In this document: positions 14,694 to 44,769 of the stretch, piece by piece
Layout of the letters: each line of letters starts with the position of its first letter
Position numbering within the stretch: the stretch's first letter is position 1
Assembly (NCBI GenBank): GCA_013153035.1
Contig: JAADFF010000083.1
Coordinates: 1-64,000, forward strand
From: Dictyoglomota bacterium
GTDB taxonomy: Bacteria; Coprothermobacterota; Coprothermobacteria; Coprothermobacterales; JAADFF01
DNA length: 64,000 nucleotides
Direction of reading: 5' to 3'
Made by a program: the position numbers and the translations under genes
The notes under the pieces: generated by a model
Seen by the model: only the letters and a program-made list of their open reading frames with translations
Told to the model about the DNA's origin: nothing
Database searches by the model: none

Positions 14694-15365
14694 CTATACA
14701 CCTCCATCATAGTAAAACGATTTAACCCTGCGAGAGTTTATATCTATATATTCCACAAAAGGTACACCAATCAATTGTTTAGTAAGCACCTTCACAACCC
14801 GCTCTCTTCCCCTACTAGATACATAATGCCCTTCATACACGGTATACAAACCCAAACGTCTTTGTGTCTTTTCCATCAGGTGAAGTGTATAAGCATCTAT
14901 TATGTAGACAATAACACCATGCGAAGACACAATATCAAAACCTACATTGAGAAACAAATCCGGTTCTCCTACAAGGGCAACAGAACCCCTACCAGAACCT
15001 TGCCGATAAAAAGGAGGGTTAAATATCACAACATCGGCAAAATCATTCATAGAAGACAGATTTGATATATCTTCACATACTGGCACAAACACTCTCTCAA
15101 GCTCATTCAAAGATATAGTCATGGATAACGATTCACACATAACGGGATCTTTTTCTACAAGATAATATTTCTTACCGATGCCATGGCTGTACATAGACAG
15201 AGAAACAATACCGCTACCAGCCCCGAGTTCTACAACATCAAGTGCATCTACACTACGCACAATATGTCCCAATATCACACTGTCAACGGCAAAACGAAAA
15301 CCTTTCTGGGGCTGAACTATAAAACGATACTTATGAAAAGTAGGCTCGAGTGTAAAACTATTCAC
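14694..15365 (-). CDS. TrmN6-like tRNA1(Val) (adenine37-N6)-methyltransferase family
   Basis: A 223-residue class I methyltransferase: the N-terminal QPQKGFRFAVDSVIL, motif I ELGAGSG (46-52) and the catalytic NPPF (116-119) of N6-adenine methylases. By family it would methylate A37 of tRNA-Val or a related RNA. It overlaps the preceding ATPase gene by 8 bases and is coupled to rsmI downstream. Confidence 0.85.
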   Translation of the reverse strand: MNSFTLEPTFHKYRFIVQPQKGFRFAVDSVILGHIVRSVDALDVVELGAGSGIVSLSMYSHGIGKKYYLVEKDPVMCESLSMTISLNELERVFVPVCEDISNLSSMNDFADVVIFNPPFYRQGSGRGSVALVGEPDLFLNVGFDIVSSHGVIVYIIDAYTLHLMEKTQRRLGLYTVYEGHYVSSRGRERVVKVLTKQLIGVPFVEYIDINSRRVKSFYYDGGV

Positions 15366-17061
15366 TGGCTTTAAGCCTCCTATATCGATTGATAACTACC
15401 GCCAAATCAAGATGACGAACAGCAGCAAACGAGTATGCCTTCTTCAACCCAATATGAGAGAGAATTTCATCCCACAAACCTTCATCCCATACCTTTTTCA
15501 AAATATCCTTAAGTTCTAAGGGGTCAACCAATGTGCCAAACTTTCCATTCCCTATAGCCTGCATCAACCCACCTATAAACTGTAGTTGGGAATAGGTATT
15601 AAACATATCATAGCCATAAAATGTAATTTCTTCCTTACCATAAATAACTTTATCTAGAGAAGGCACTTTGACTTTGGGTTTTGAAACAGATAAAGACTTT
15701 GAAATCCAAAACCTTTTAAGAGGTTCCTTTGCCGGTGGAACCTCTTCTTTTATACGTTGTGAAGGATATTCTTTAACAATCTGGCGAGCTTTATCCGTAA
15801 AATCATAAGGCTCATAGTACTCCATCACAATAACGGTATCGGCAATATCGAGAAAATCTCCAAGACCCCCAACAACCATAATAGTAGAAACTCCAAATTT
15901 ATCATATAACTCTTGTATTCTGTCTATAAGAGGTGTAATAGGTTCATATTTTTTGGGTATTAGTCTCTGCATACGATAATCACGCACCATAAAGTTGGTG
16001 GCACATGTATCTTCATCCATTAAAAGCAACTTAGCCCCAGCTTGTATGGCCTCAATAATAGATGCTGCTTGTGATGTAGAACCACTGGCATTATCTGTAG
16101 AAAAGTGTACTGTATCCTTACCACCAGGCAAACCATTGATAAACATAGATATATCAACTTTTTCTACTTTTCTACCATCTTCAGCTCTTACCCGTAATGT
16201 ATCATAAGTCGTTACTACATATTCTCTGCCATCCCCTGGTATATGATAAAAAATACCTTTAGCTATGGCACTAAGGAGAGTAGATTTACCGTGAAAACCT
16301 CCTCCAGTTATCAGAGTAATCCCCTTTTTGATAGCCATCCCGCTTACTGATTCTCCATGTGGTACCGGTATAGTAATACGCAAAGATTCAGGAGACTGGA
16401 ATGGTATACCAGAAACCAAGGGTTTATCGCTAACACCACTTTCCCGGGGAAGCAAACTACCATCCGCCACAAAGGCAACATATCCATGTTCCTCAAGATA
16501 TTTTCTTATAGCATAAGCGTTCTCGACTACATAGATGTGCTCCCAAAGTTCTCTAACATCTGTTTTAGTCAAAGCAAGTTCTCTAACAATAGAAGGAATA
16601 GCCTCATTAAACATGAATACAGCACCTTTACCATTGATTCGCCTACCAAAAGCTGGTAACCCCATATAAAATCTTAGTTGGATATAATCACTTTTCACTA
16701 CCGAATTTGAGCGAAATATTATCTCCTGACCAGGCACATCTGTTGAAAATCGCCCACTACCACCCGTACCAAGATTCTTAGAATATTGCTTCAGTAACTT
16801 AGCAAACTTGCGAAGCATAAAATCCTCAAGTGCAAGTTTTCTTCTTGGGTTTTCGTTCATATCTTCGTTAATATTTAGCATTGCTAAAGGTATCTGAACG
16901 GTAACCTTAGAAGGAGATGCAAAGGGATCTCCTTGAACATGGTCTATAAATAACATAAAGCCCTGCTCGTGTTTATATTCTCCTCTAATATCCTTATACG
17001 CTTTATAACTCTTCCCATCCATGCTTTTTAGCATTCTAATAAGCTGTGTGTATTTTGACAC
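15358..17061 (-). CDS. Predicted ATPase of the ABC class (PF09818/COG3044 type)
   Basis: A 567-residue soluble protein. It shows Walker A GGGFHGKST (253-261), a serine-rich signature NASGSTSQ (325-332) in the ABC signature position, and Walker B LLLMDED (345-351) followed by CATNFM. The C-terminal LDLAVVINRYRRL is also characteristic of this family. The N-terminal RNase-like part (GSGRFSTDVPGQEI) is conserved but of unknown role. No transporter partner is present, so it is not a classic ABC importer or exporter. GTG start after GGAGGTGGTAGT. It heads the run with trmN6-like and rsmI, which may hint at an RNA-related role. Confidence 0.8.
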   Translation of the reverse strand: MSKYTQLIRMLKSMDGKSYKAYKDIRGEYKHEQGFMLFIDHVQGDPFASPSKVTVQIPLAMLNINEDMNENPRRKLALEDFMLRKFAKLLKQYSKNLGTGGSGRFSTDVPGQEIIFRSNSVVKSDYIQLRFYMGLPAFGRRINGKGAVFMFNEAIPSIVRELALTKTDVRELWEHIYVVENAYAIRKYLEEHGYVAFVADGSLLPRESGVSDKPLVSGIPFQSPESLRITIPVPHGESVSGMAIKKGITLITGGGFHGKSTLLSAIAKGIFYHIPGDGREYVVTTYDTLRVRAEDGRKVEKVDISMFINGLPGGKDTVHFSTDNASGSTSQAASIIEAIQAGAKLLLMDEDTCATNFMVRDYRMQRLIPKKYEPITPLIDRIQELYDKFGVSTIMVVGGLGDFLDIADTVIVMEYYEPYDFTDKARQIVKEYPSQRIKEEVPPAKEPLKRFWISKSLSVSKPKVKVPSLDKVIYGKEEITFYGYDMFNTYSQLQFIGGLMQAIGNGKFGTLVDPLELKDILKKVWDEGLWDEILSHIGLKKAYSFAAVRHLDLAVVINRYRRLKASE

Positions 17062-17088: not shown

Positions 17089-17097
17089 TGTTATAAT
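17089..17097 (+). promoter_or_regulatory. Extended -10 promoter of the ribU transcript
   Basis: TGTTATAAT is a TGn plus perfect TATAAT; no good -35 is at the expected distance. A transcript would start near 17104, about 30 bases before the FMN aptamer. Confidence 0.55.
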
Positions 17098-17133
17098 CCT
17101 ACCGTATAAAAGATAAAACATAACAAGCAGGTA

Positions 17134-17252
17134 GCGGACCCTTCGGGGACGGGTGAAATTCCCTACCGGCGGTAAAAGCCCGCGAGCCCCTTACGGGGTT
17201 GACACGGTGAAATTCCGTGGCCGACGGTAAAAGTCCGGATGGGAGAAGGGTC
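17134..17252 (+). ncRNA. FMN riboswitch (RFN element)
   Basis: The conserved RFN cores are plain: GGGTGAAATTCCCTACCGG, then CGGTAAAAGCCCGCGAGCC, then GGTGAAATTCC, GCCGAC-type CCGACGGTAAAAGTCCGG and ATGGGAGAAGG. P1 is formed by GACCCTTC (17137-17144) with GAAGGGTC (17245-17252). A second, identical GAAGGGTC lies at 17256-17263, right before the expression platform. It binds FMN and should lower expression of the riboflavin transporter gene that follows. Confidence 0.96.
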
Positions 17253-17262
17253 AATGAAGGGT

Positions 17263-17290
17263 CCCCCTGCAGTAAAAGGGGGTTATTTTT
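17263..17290 (+). promoter_or_regulatory. Expression platform: Shine-Dalgarno-sequestering hairpin of the FMN riboswitch
   Basis: CCCCC (17263-17267) can pair with GGGGG (17278-17282), which is the Shine-Dalgarno eight bases before the ribU ATG. TTATTTTT follows the hairpin directly, so it can also act as a short intrinsic terminator. Translation block, termination or both are possible. Confidence 0.75.
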
Positions 17291-17839
17291 ATGCACAAAG
17301 AAACTCTGCGGTTAAAAAATTTACTTATTCTCTCTGTTCTTATTGCCATTTCCTTCGTACTTGCCAGATGGCAAATTCCACTTATGCCACCGTACAATTT
17401 TCTAAAATTTGATCTATCAGAAACACCTATGATCATGGCTGTACTTCTATATCCAGAATTTACTCTTCTTACCGCACTGGCATATACAGCACTTGCATAC
17501 ATGGTCTATGATCCTATCGGTGCAACCTTCAAAGTTATAGCCGTACTCTCAATGATTTTACCTATCGGTATAGGGAACTTTTTTGCCCCAACTTACAGAA
17601 AACACAAAGGATTCCAAATCGGGCTCCTCATAATGGGAATAGCAACTAGAGTGGGTATCATGGTAGGAGTGAACTACTATCTTATAGAGATTGCACATTT
17701 CTGGGGCAACATATCCATGCCTATTAGTTACTATATTGTCATCATTCCCCTATTTAATTTAGGACAGGCAACACTCAATGCCATTCTTGGATATATAACA
17801 ACAACACAGATAGAAAAAATACTGGCAGGAGAGGCTTAG
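17291..17839 (+). CDS. ribU: Riboflavin ECF transporter S component RibU
   Basis: A 182-residue membrane protein with about five to six hydrophobic segments. The motif FLKFDLSETPMI corresponds to the substrate-loop motif of RibU proteins (K-x-D-x-S-x-P). It binds riboflavin and needs the shared EcfA/A'/T energising module, which is not in this window. The FMN riboswitch just upstream confirms the flavin role independently of the protein sequence. The stop overlaps the stop of the convergent FapA-like gene by four bases. Confidence 0.93.
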   Translation: MHKETLRLKNLLILSVLIAISFVLARWQIPLMPPYNFLKFDLSETPMIMAVLLYPEFTLLTALAYTALAYMVYDPIGATFKVIAVLSMILPIGIGNFFAPTYRKHKGFQIGLLIMGIATRVGIMVGVNYYLIEIAHFWGNISMPISYYIVIIPLFNLGQATLNAILGYITTTQIEKILAGEA

Positions 17840-19470: not shown

Positions 19471-19781
19471 TAGGCATCTCCCCTATATTTTTTAACAGAC
19501 TGTACCTTACCCTCCATAGTAAGCTGTTTATCGGTTCTCTCATCTACTTTCAATGTATAAACAACTCTCTTTATCCCCATATCAAACATATGACGCTTGA
19601 TATCTAAAATAGCCTGAAAAATAATTTCTTCCTCTCCCTCAATAATCGTGCACATAGGTGTAAGTTGATATTTTAGATTATATTTATCTAGAATCTCCAG
19701 AACATGGGCAACATATTTACTGACAGATGGAGTATCTGTTCCCAAAGGTGTAACAACTAATGATGCTATCACGTGAGACAT
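19470..19781 (-). CDS. MTH1187/YqgV family thiamine-binding protein
   Basis: A 103-residue ferredoxin-like protein (PF01910). VIASLVVTPLGTDTPSVSKYV at the start and YQLTPMCTIIEGE in the middle are the family signature; homologues bind thiamine or its precursors. ATG at 19781, four bases after GGGAGGTGAT. It is coupled to the FapA-like gene. A TATAAT (minus) lies at 19803-19808 with a poor -35. Confidence 0.85.
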   Translation of the reverse strand: MSHVIASLVVTPLGTDTPSVSKYVAHVLEILDKYNLKYQLTPMCTIIEGEEEIIFQAILDIKRHMFDMGIKRVVYTLKVDERTDKQLTMEGKVQSVKKYRGDA

Positions 19782-19816
19782 AGGTATCACCTCCCTTTTA
19801 TGTTATTATAGAACAA

Positions 19817-20431
19817 ATGATTATCAATTCTAAAATACCGAATTTGTCAGTAGACGAAGAGGAAAAGTGGGCCTATCAGTTCTGGAAATACTTAATGGCT
19901 AGCCTATGGATTGTTGGTTTTATTTTAATTACCACAATAAAAATCACAATGTTTCATTCTTATATGATATTTGCACTATATCCCATATTAATTGCCATGT
20001 TCTTTCTCGATAGATACGGCACCATGTTTGTAGCAGGAATATCGGTAGCAATAGCAATGTGGTTCTTAGAAAACTATTATCTTATGCCATGGTATTTTAT
20101 AATTTATGGCATCGCTTCGTTTATAGCGTATAAATATGCATATGGAGACACTCCAACAAAAAATATGTCTTCGCAAATGCCACATCTTATTCACCAACCT
20201 AAAGCAAAAGATGAAAAGAACACCATATATGTTATGTACGCTATGATTATCGTTGCCCTTGGAAGTACTTTAGTAGATATATTTTCCCTCGGTAAAACCA
20301 TATTCATACTGAGATTTCCTATCCACATTATTGAGGCAACAGTATCGGGTATCGCCGCTATGCTTACCATTATGCTCTACGAACGGATAAAGAAAAAGAG
20401 GAGCGAACGCTCCCCTTACAAACCAATATAG
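19817..20431 (+). CDS. Unknown multi-pass membrane protein (204 aa)
   Basis: No family recognised. After a short soluble start there are about four hydrophobic segments between residues 27 and 112, a charged cytoplasmic-like loop (about 113-137, with KAKDEK), and two more segments (about 138-185), ending in a basic tail RIKKKRSERS. Size and layout are compatible with an ECF-type substrate-binding component or another small integral protein, but no binding motif is clear. It is divergent from the thiamine-binding gene with only 35 bases between the starts, and has no obvious Shine-Dalgarno, so the start is uncertain. Confidence 0.6.
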   Translation: MIINSKIPNLSVDEEEKWAYQFWKYLMASLWIVGFILITTIKITMFHSYMIFALYPILIAMFFLDRYGTMFVAGISVAIAMWFLENYYLMPWYFIIYGIASFIAYKYAYGDTPTKNMSSQMPHLIHQPKAKDEKNTIYVMYAMIIVALGSTLVDIFSLGKTIFILRFPIHIIEATVSGIAAMLTIMLYERIKKKRSERSPYKPI

Positions 20432-44109: not shown

Positions 44110-44197
44110 TGGTGCGGGCGGTGGGATTCGAACCCACACGGCTTTTTGGGCCACTGGATTCTAAGTCCAGCGCGTCTTCCAATTCCGCCACGCCCGC
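44110..44197 (-). tRNA. tRNA-Leu (anticodon TAG)
   Basis: 88 bases with the CCA end encoded. Acceptor GCGGGCG/CGCCCGC, anticodon loop CTTAGAA, a long class II variable arm (GGCCCAAAAAGCC region) and the T-loop GGTTCGAATCC are all present. Confidence 0.97.
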
Positions 44198-44219
44198 ACC
44201 TAAACTTTTTAAATAAAAA

Positions 44220-44295
44220 TGGTGGGCCGTGCAGGACTCGAACCTGCAACCCTCGGATTAAGAGTCCGATGCTCTGCCGGTTGAGCTAACGGCCC
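44220..44295 (-). tRNA. tRNA-Lys (anticodon CTT)
   Basis: 76 bases, CCA encoded. Acceptor GGGCCGT/ACGGCCC, anticodon loop CTCTTAA, T-loop GGTTCGAGTCC. It differs from the neighbouring tRNA-Lys(TTT) by a compensated second acceptor pair (G-C instead of A-T). Confidence 0.97.
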
Positions 44296-44301
44296 ACACA
44301 C

Positions 44302-44377
44302 TGGTGAGCCGTGCAGGGCTCGAACCTGCGACACCCGGCTTAAAAGGCCGGTGCTCTACCGACTGAGCTAACGGCTC
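44302..44377 (-). tRNA. tRNA-Lys (anticodon TTT)
   Basis: 76 bases, CCA encoded. Acceptor GAGCCGT/ACGGCTC, anticodon loop CTTTTAA. It is the first gene after the internal promoter at 44392-44420. Confidence 0.97.
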
Positions 44378-44391
44378 ACCAGACGATTTTA

Positions 44392-44420
44392 ATTATAAGC
44401 CCCTTGGATACTTTTGTCAA
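44392..44420 (-). promoter_or_regulatory. Consensus sigma-70 promoter inside the tRNA array
   Basis: On the minus strand a perfect TTGACA is followed 17 bases later by a perfect TATAAT. It should drive tRNA-Lys(TTT), tRNA-Lys(CTT) and tRNA-Leu. The same stretch holds the hairpin of 44400-44423. Confidence 0.85.
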
Positions 44421-44423
44421 GGG
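44400..44423 (-). terminator. Terminator-like hairpin after tRNA-Arg(CCT), overlapping a promoter
   Basis: CCCCTTGACA and the facing CCAAGGGG form an eight-pair stem just past tRNA-Arg(CCT). The sequence after it (CTTATAATT) has no T-run, so termination may be partial. The -35 box of the next promoter lies in its left arm. Confidence 0.5.
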
Positions 44424-44426
44424 GTT

Positions 44427-44503
44427 TGGTGAGCCCGGAGGGATTCGAACCCCCGACCTGCAGCTTAGGAGGCTGCCGCTCTATCCTGCTGAGCTACGGG
44501 CCC
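44427..44503 (-). tRNA. tRNA-Arg (anticodon CCT)
   Basis: 77 bases, CCA encoded. Acceptor GGGCCCG/CGGGCTC with a G-T wobble at the second pair, anticodon loop CTCCTAA. Outside the anticodon arm it is identical to tRNA-Arg(TCT) at 44608. Confidence 0.97.
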
Positions 44504-44518
44504 ACCAAAAAGAAAAGT

Positions 44519-44595
44519 TGGGGTGAGCGAGGGGACTTGAACCCCCGACCACCGGATCCACAGTCCGGCGCTCTTCCAGCTGAGCTACGCTCACC
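44519..44595 (-). tRNA. tRNA-His (anticodon GTG)
   Basis: Acceptor GTGAGCG/CGCTCAC with the extra genomic G-1 facing C73, as expected for tRNA-His, and CCA encoded. Anticodon loop CTGTGGA. Confidence 0.97.
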
Positions 44596-44607
44596 ACCAT
44601 AGAAAAG

Positions 44608-44684
44608 TGGTGAGCCCGGAGGGATTCGAACCCCCGACCCTGGGATTAGAAGTCCCATGCTCTATCCTGCTGAGCTACGGGCCC
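44608..44684 (-). tRNA. tRNA-Arg (anticodon TCT)
   Basis: 77 bases, CCA encoded, anticodon loop CTTCTAA, same acceptor with a G-T wobble as tRNA-Arg(CCT). It reads AGA, a codon that appears frequent in the genes of this window. Confidence 0.97.
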
Positions 44685-44692
44685 ACCACACT

Positions 44693-44769
44693 TGGTCGGG
44701 GCGGGCGGGCTCGAACCGCCGACCTCGTGCTCCCAAGGCACGCGCGCTCCCATACTGCGCTACGCCCCG
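44693..44769 (-). tRNA. tRNA-Pro (anticodon TGG)
   Basis: 77 bases, CCA encoded. Acceptor CGGGGCG/CGCCCCG, anticodon loop CTTGGGA. First gene of the array, 22 bases after the -10 box. Confidence 0.97.

Follow-up and report, generated by a model that had tools for sequence, protein, structure and literature searches.

By folding calculations, the leader of a RibU-like riboflavin transporter gene in an uncultivated Coprothermobacterota genome (from a family adjoining Coprothermobacteraceae) forms two folds that differ in access to the Shine-Dalgarno sequence (SD) and that follow one another in order along the transcript, and the strands involved are selectively conserved in one congener. We consider it probable, at about three chances in four, that this leader is an OFF riboswitch through which FMN represses riboflavin uptake, by toehold-assisted cotranscriptional exchange of strands.

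The FMN leader and its repeated P1 strand

In the window (the whole stretch of DNA analysed, 64,000 nucleotides), cmscan identified a complete FMN riboswitch aptamer at 17135-17254 (RF00050, model positions 1-138 of 138), with a score of 120.2 bits compared to a gathering score of 66.2 (E = 1.6 × 10−27); it is the single copy of this riboswitch in the 1.43-Mb draft genome. The 3' end of the aptamer is separated by 36 bases from the start of an ORF whose 182-aa product has RibU proteins as its best solved relatives (5kc0, 5kbw and 3p5n; E = 7 × 10−4 to 9 × 10−4 by phmmer), so that the riboswitch stands upstream of a riboflavin transport gene. The probable promoter element TGTTATAAT, which is missing from the consensus promoter scan because it has no matching −35 hexamer, is the same in the congener, and transcription probably starts near 17104. 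The features to which we refer below are as follows.

17089-17097, + strand: probable extended −10 promoter element TGTTATAAT, with TATAAT at 17092 (sequence)
17127-17131, + strand: GCAGG, candidate upstream toehold strand, partner of CCTGC (17266-17270) in the copy-2 state (folds, mutant)
17135-17254, + strand: FMN riboswitch aptamer RF00050 (cmscan, 120.2 bits)
17136-17144, + strand: GGACCCTTC, 5' strand of P1, the strand predicted to be exchanged (sequence, folds)
17245-17252, + strand: GAAGGGTC, copy 1, 3' strand of the aptamer P1 (Rfam alignment)
17256-17264, + strand: GAAGGGTC(C), copy 2, predicted anti-sequestor strand (sequence, folds, in silico mutants)
17263-17267, + strand: C-run CCCCC, anti-SD strand of the sequestor hairpin (forced copy-1 fold)
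17266-17270, + strand: CCTGC, candidate 3' toehold strand, overlapping the C-run (folds, barrier estimate)
17278-17282, + strand: GGGGG, SD, 3' arm of the sequestor/terminator-like hairpin (terminator scan, folds)
17283-17290, + strand: TTATTTTT, T-rich spacer, possible terminator tail (7 T of 8)
17291-17839, + strand: RibU-like riboflavin transporter (ECF S component), 182 aa, start codon ATG at 17291 (phmmer to RibU structures)

Several other genes in the window were noted. The divergent neighbour of the riboswitch (15358-17061, minus strand) encodes an 'ATPase of the ABC class' protein (PF09818/PF20446), which belongs to an odd family. Two genes from the riboflavin transporter, a member of the thiamine-binding protein family PF01910 is encoded at 19473-19790 (minus strand), and it is adjoined by a 204-aa ORF on the opposite strand (19817-20431). 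Seven tRNA genes are clustered in about 660 bases at 44113-44769 (minus strand).

The core of the 5' P1 strand is GACCCTTC (17137-17144), and copy 2 (17256-17263) is an exact repeat of copy 1, 11 bases downstream; all coordinates and bases given for these strands in a preliminary description of this DNA proved right when checked in the sequence. In 100 dinucleotide shuffles of the platform, no 8-base repeat of the P1 3' strand arose; an exact repeat of this length was confined to this leader and its congener in a survey of 131 FMN leaders that covered several phyla. These shuffles and the leader survey, together with the conservation in the congener, rule out a chance origin of the GAAGGGTC repeat. 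The related loci, among them those of Coprothermobacter platensis and one Coprothermobacteraceae MAG, and the kinship between the genomes give the family-level placement stated above; a scan of the GTDB genome collection added as relatives one congener (genome G001, locus L003) and Coprothermobacteraceae only.

Two exclusive predicted folds and their order along the transcript

We folded the RNA from 17105 to 17290 at 37, 55 and 65 °C, with P1 forced to copy 1, forced to copy 2, or unconstrained; the energies from these folds cover the secondary structure of the ligand-free RNA. When P1 was forced to copy 1, the sequestor formed (0.97-1.0) and the free fraction of the SD was 0.00 at 37 °C and at most 0.02 at 55 and 65 °C; when P1 was forced to copy 2, the free fraction of the SD was 0.74-0.77. 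Without constraint, the ensemble favoured copy 2; the margin was 3.4 kcal/mol at 37 °C and about 1.9 kcal/mol at 65 °C. The preliminary description had claimed that the 5' P1 strand can pair with either of the identical copies, that pairing with copy 1 leaves the C-run to mask the SD, and that pairing with copy 2 frees it. Both states indeed form in the constrained folds, with the C-run/SD hairpin fully formed in the forced copy-1 fold and the SD freed in the forced copy-2 fold, and the check proposed there, folding with the aptamer constrained or not, finds copy 2 paired in the ligand-free ensemble.

The extended copy-2 pairing GGACCCTTC/GAAGGGTCC (17136-17144/17256-17264) is likewise as previously described, but the copy-2 helix is longer than had been noted: across a small internal loop, GCAGG pairs with CCTGC, which extends the helix to 14 pairs. 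Because the helix reaches these strands, the C-run is almost wholly paired away from the SD (6% unpaired in the copy-2 state). Mutation of copy 2 in silico decreased the ligand-free accessibility of the SD to 0.00-0.01 and thus abolished its release, and mutation of GCAGG with copy 2 intact decreased it from 0.73 to 0.17. With the SD 17% free in the GCAGG mutant, the loss of two C alone, which had been proposed as the cause of SD release, is insufficient, and the outer GCAGG/CCTGC helix is essential. The SD-release behaviour was reproduced in 0 of 300 shuffles of flank and linker and in 0 of 300 shuffles of the linker only. Taken together, the constrained folds, mutants and shuffles indicate two exclusive helices that share P1 bases of the aptamer and differ in SD access.

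The preference for copy 2 varies with the 3' end of the folded RNA, being about 0.5 kcal/mol with at least 20 coding bases and reversed by 0.3 kcal/mol at +30 coding bases (37 °C). In the congener, we observed the same two states, with a copy-2 preference of about 0 to 2 kcal/mol. When longer RNAs of this genome were folded, GCAG also paired with coding sequence around 17304; we give this pairing no role because the congener lacks CTGC there.

In equilibrium folds of the growing transcript, P1 was formed with copy 1 until 17258 and with copy 2 from 17264, ahead of SD synthesis. By direct-path estimates, the barrier for the change from copy 1 to copy 2 is about 10 kcal/mol before CCTGC is made and 5.7 kcal/mol once it is transcribed, and this drop indicates that GCAGG/CCTGC behaves as a toehold; interconversion after the sequestor has formed is estimated, by the same approach, at 14-16 kcal/mol. 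The length-scan folds and the barriers together point to a decision window of roughly 17258-17282, during transcription.

The sequence of events that we propose begins as the polymerase leaves the aptamer, when the 5' strand of P1 would first pair with copy 1 and close the FMN pocket. With FMN bound, the copy-1 P1 would be held, the free C-run would pair with GGGGG and hide the SD, and transcription might also be terminated at TTATTTTT. When FMN is absent, CCTGC would dock on GCAGG upstream of P1 and copy 2 would displace copy 1; the SD would then stay open because the long copy-2 helix absorbs the C-run, and RibU would be made. Judging from what P1/P6 stacking does in the FMN aptamer (PMC7573352), FMN can be expected to stabilise the copy-1 form, and the copy-2 form, in which P6 and P1 are 11 bases further apart, presumably cannot bind FMN.

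We put slightly short of even the chances of a further reading, that the leader is a natural case of toehold-mediated three-way strand displacement, in which the 5' strand has a choice of two identical partners owing to an 11-base tandem duplication of the P1 3' strand. If this were true, FMN would gate branch migration between identical strands, five bases outside P1 would serve as the toehold that starts the exchange, and an always-open leader could have been turned into an OFF switch by one slippage event. The duplication would assign closure of the aptamer and disarming of the sequestor to different strands, which an OFF switch requires.

Conservation of the proposed switch and its possible outputs

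Between the congener and this genome, the third codon positions of ribU are 54% identical and the protein is 69% identical. Of the 33 switch positions outside the aptamer (GCAGG, copy 2, the rest of the C-run with TGC, the SD and TTATTTTT), none changed in this one congener, compared to 13 of the 43 other leader positions (Fisher p = 2.4 × 10−4). Both copies and their partner strand are identical in the two genomes, so that these observations represent conservation, not covariation; the preliminary description would have counted against its own reading any relatives that lack the second copy but keep the regulation, and the only congener retains that copy.

The Coprothermobacteraceae leaders have other letters in a comparable layout, with GCGGTGG in the 5' flank facing a CCACCGC that overlaps the anti-SD CCCTCC of the SD GGAGGG. 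When P1 was forced in three of these leaders, the sequestor formed in all three; forcing of the outer helix opened the SD fully in two leaders and incompletely in the remaining one. The ligand-free equilibrium fold favours the sequestor in two of the three and the outer helix clearly only in one (L018); taken on its own in one leader, the outer complementarity is no more than chance would give (p about 0.2).

Of 58 crudely called genes in the 64-kb window, 8 have GGGGG at the SD position, where it likely replaces GGAGG; it is thus plausible as an SD. Among the same 58 gene starts of the window, the spacer TTATTTTT is the most T-rich, and it is unchanged in the congener; its composition and conservation make some termination possible. 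We expect translation block to be the main output, with termination as a possible addition. A less likely but substantial alternative is that the same strand exchange acts mainly through termination, with the C5/G5 hairpin followed by TTATTTTT stopping transcription before the start codon in the FMN-bound state. Besides the spacer, a terminator-like match at 17263-17282, with a hairpin of −11.3 kcal/mol, and the existence of dual platforms of this kind (PMC2258182) are consistent with such an output, but the stem has 5-6 pairs with an 8-base loop, and the U-tail is broken by A, with a marginal score of 3.66. The Coprothermobacteraceae leaders, moreover, have no T-run after the SD, so that translation block is the feature shared with them.

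It is improbable that copy 2 is neutral, left behind by slippage that duplicated 11 bases (GAAGGGTCAAT / GAAGGGTCCCC), and plays no part in switching. The unit does resemble an 11-base tandem duplication, and slippage could be its origin, but both copies remained intact at the ribU third-position divergence given above, while the spacer, loop and 5' linker changed. When the 11-base unit was removed, P1 ran into the C-run and the toehold and the SD hairpin was lost in the fold, which would abolish the OFF logic. Most improbable of all is the classical exchange of the P1 3' strand, in which AGGG of copy 1 (17247-17250) would pair with CCCT (17265-17268) without FMN and copy 2 would be a mere linker: this pairing is possible on paper and the design is known, but the pair probability was 0.0 at 37, 55 and 65 °C, making such capture negligible in the folds, and the conserved copy 2 and GCAGG would be left unexplained.

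Comparison with known riboswitch designs

Riboswitch platforms are highly diverse, and the origin of a new platform is rarely visible. In this leader, the two competing strands lie side by side and have not diverged, and because the copies differ only in their position and the sequence that follows, strand displacement gated by FMN could be tested cleanly here; the leader would also serve to test how an expression platform can originate from a short tandem duplication. The view of FMN riboswitches as a class is unaltered by the finding; the switch class and its logic are already well known.

At p ≤ 0.02, a platform complement of the 5' region was detected in 25 of 130 FMN leaders (mostly CCCCGAAG to CTTCGGGG) and one of the 3' region in 3 of 130, rates that are rough because the leaders were sampled by convenience, with more weight on a few phyla. 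It has been described that, in FMN leaders, TTCAGGGC is the antiterminator and both P1 strands are anti-antiterminators (PMC7522473). That publication and the 25 of 130 leaders show the 5' P1 strand to be captured in a common FMN design and rule out such capture as an unusual feature. The core logic of strand exchange in the preliminary description holds by calculation, but 5'-strand capture is not peculiar to this leader. In a leader from the same phylum but another family (L008, an FMN leader before a different gene), the P1 3' region TGGGAAAAGG has a 10-base platform complement and is captured by the platform; with this opposite design, both modes of exchange occur in one phylum. A literature search covering few subscription papers found no direct repeats in FMN expression platforms.

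Transcriptional FMN riboswitches, such as that of ribD (PMC7522473), have the same aptamer, and their 5' P1 region is captured by the platform without FMN; P1 formation as an anti-antiterminator is a further likeness shared here. The common FMN platforms capture inward, CTTCGGGG being captured by CCCCGAAG, whereas here the predicted helix extends outward into the 5' flank and capture would fall to copy 2, which exactly repeats the P1 3' strand next to it. Dual terminator/SD expression platforms, with an intrinsic terminator at most 10 nt from the start codon, have already been described (PMC2258182), and the present leader resembles them in having the SD in the 3' arm of a terminator-like hairpin beside the start codon, although its terminator is marginal and putative. 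The Bacillus subtilis yxjA purine riboswitch (PMC9756952) is a strand-exchange riboswitch with a central helix; there, as we propose here, P1 is held by the ligand against a helix that invades it, and in both cases the invading helix excludes the output hairpin and the choice would be made during transcription. Mutants of yxjA place the exchanged bases (83-91) on the downstream side of P1 (PMC9756952), whereas here the 5' strand would be exchanged, two identical copies would compete for it, and a separate toehold would start the exchange. What is new in this leader is that the repeat is exact and adjacent, that the predicted capturing helix runs outward and that the candidate toehold is a separate element.
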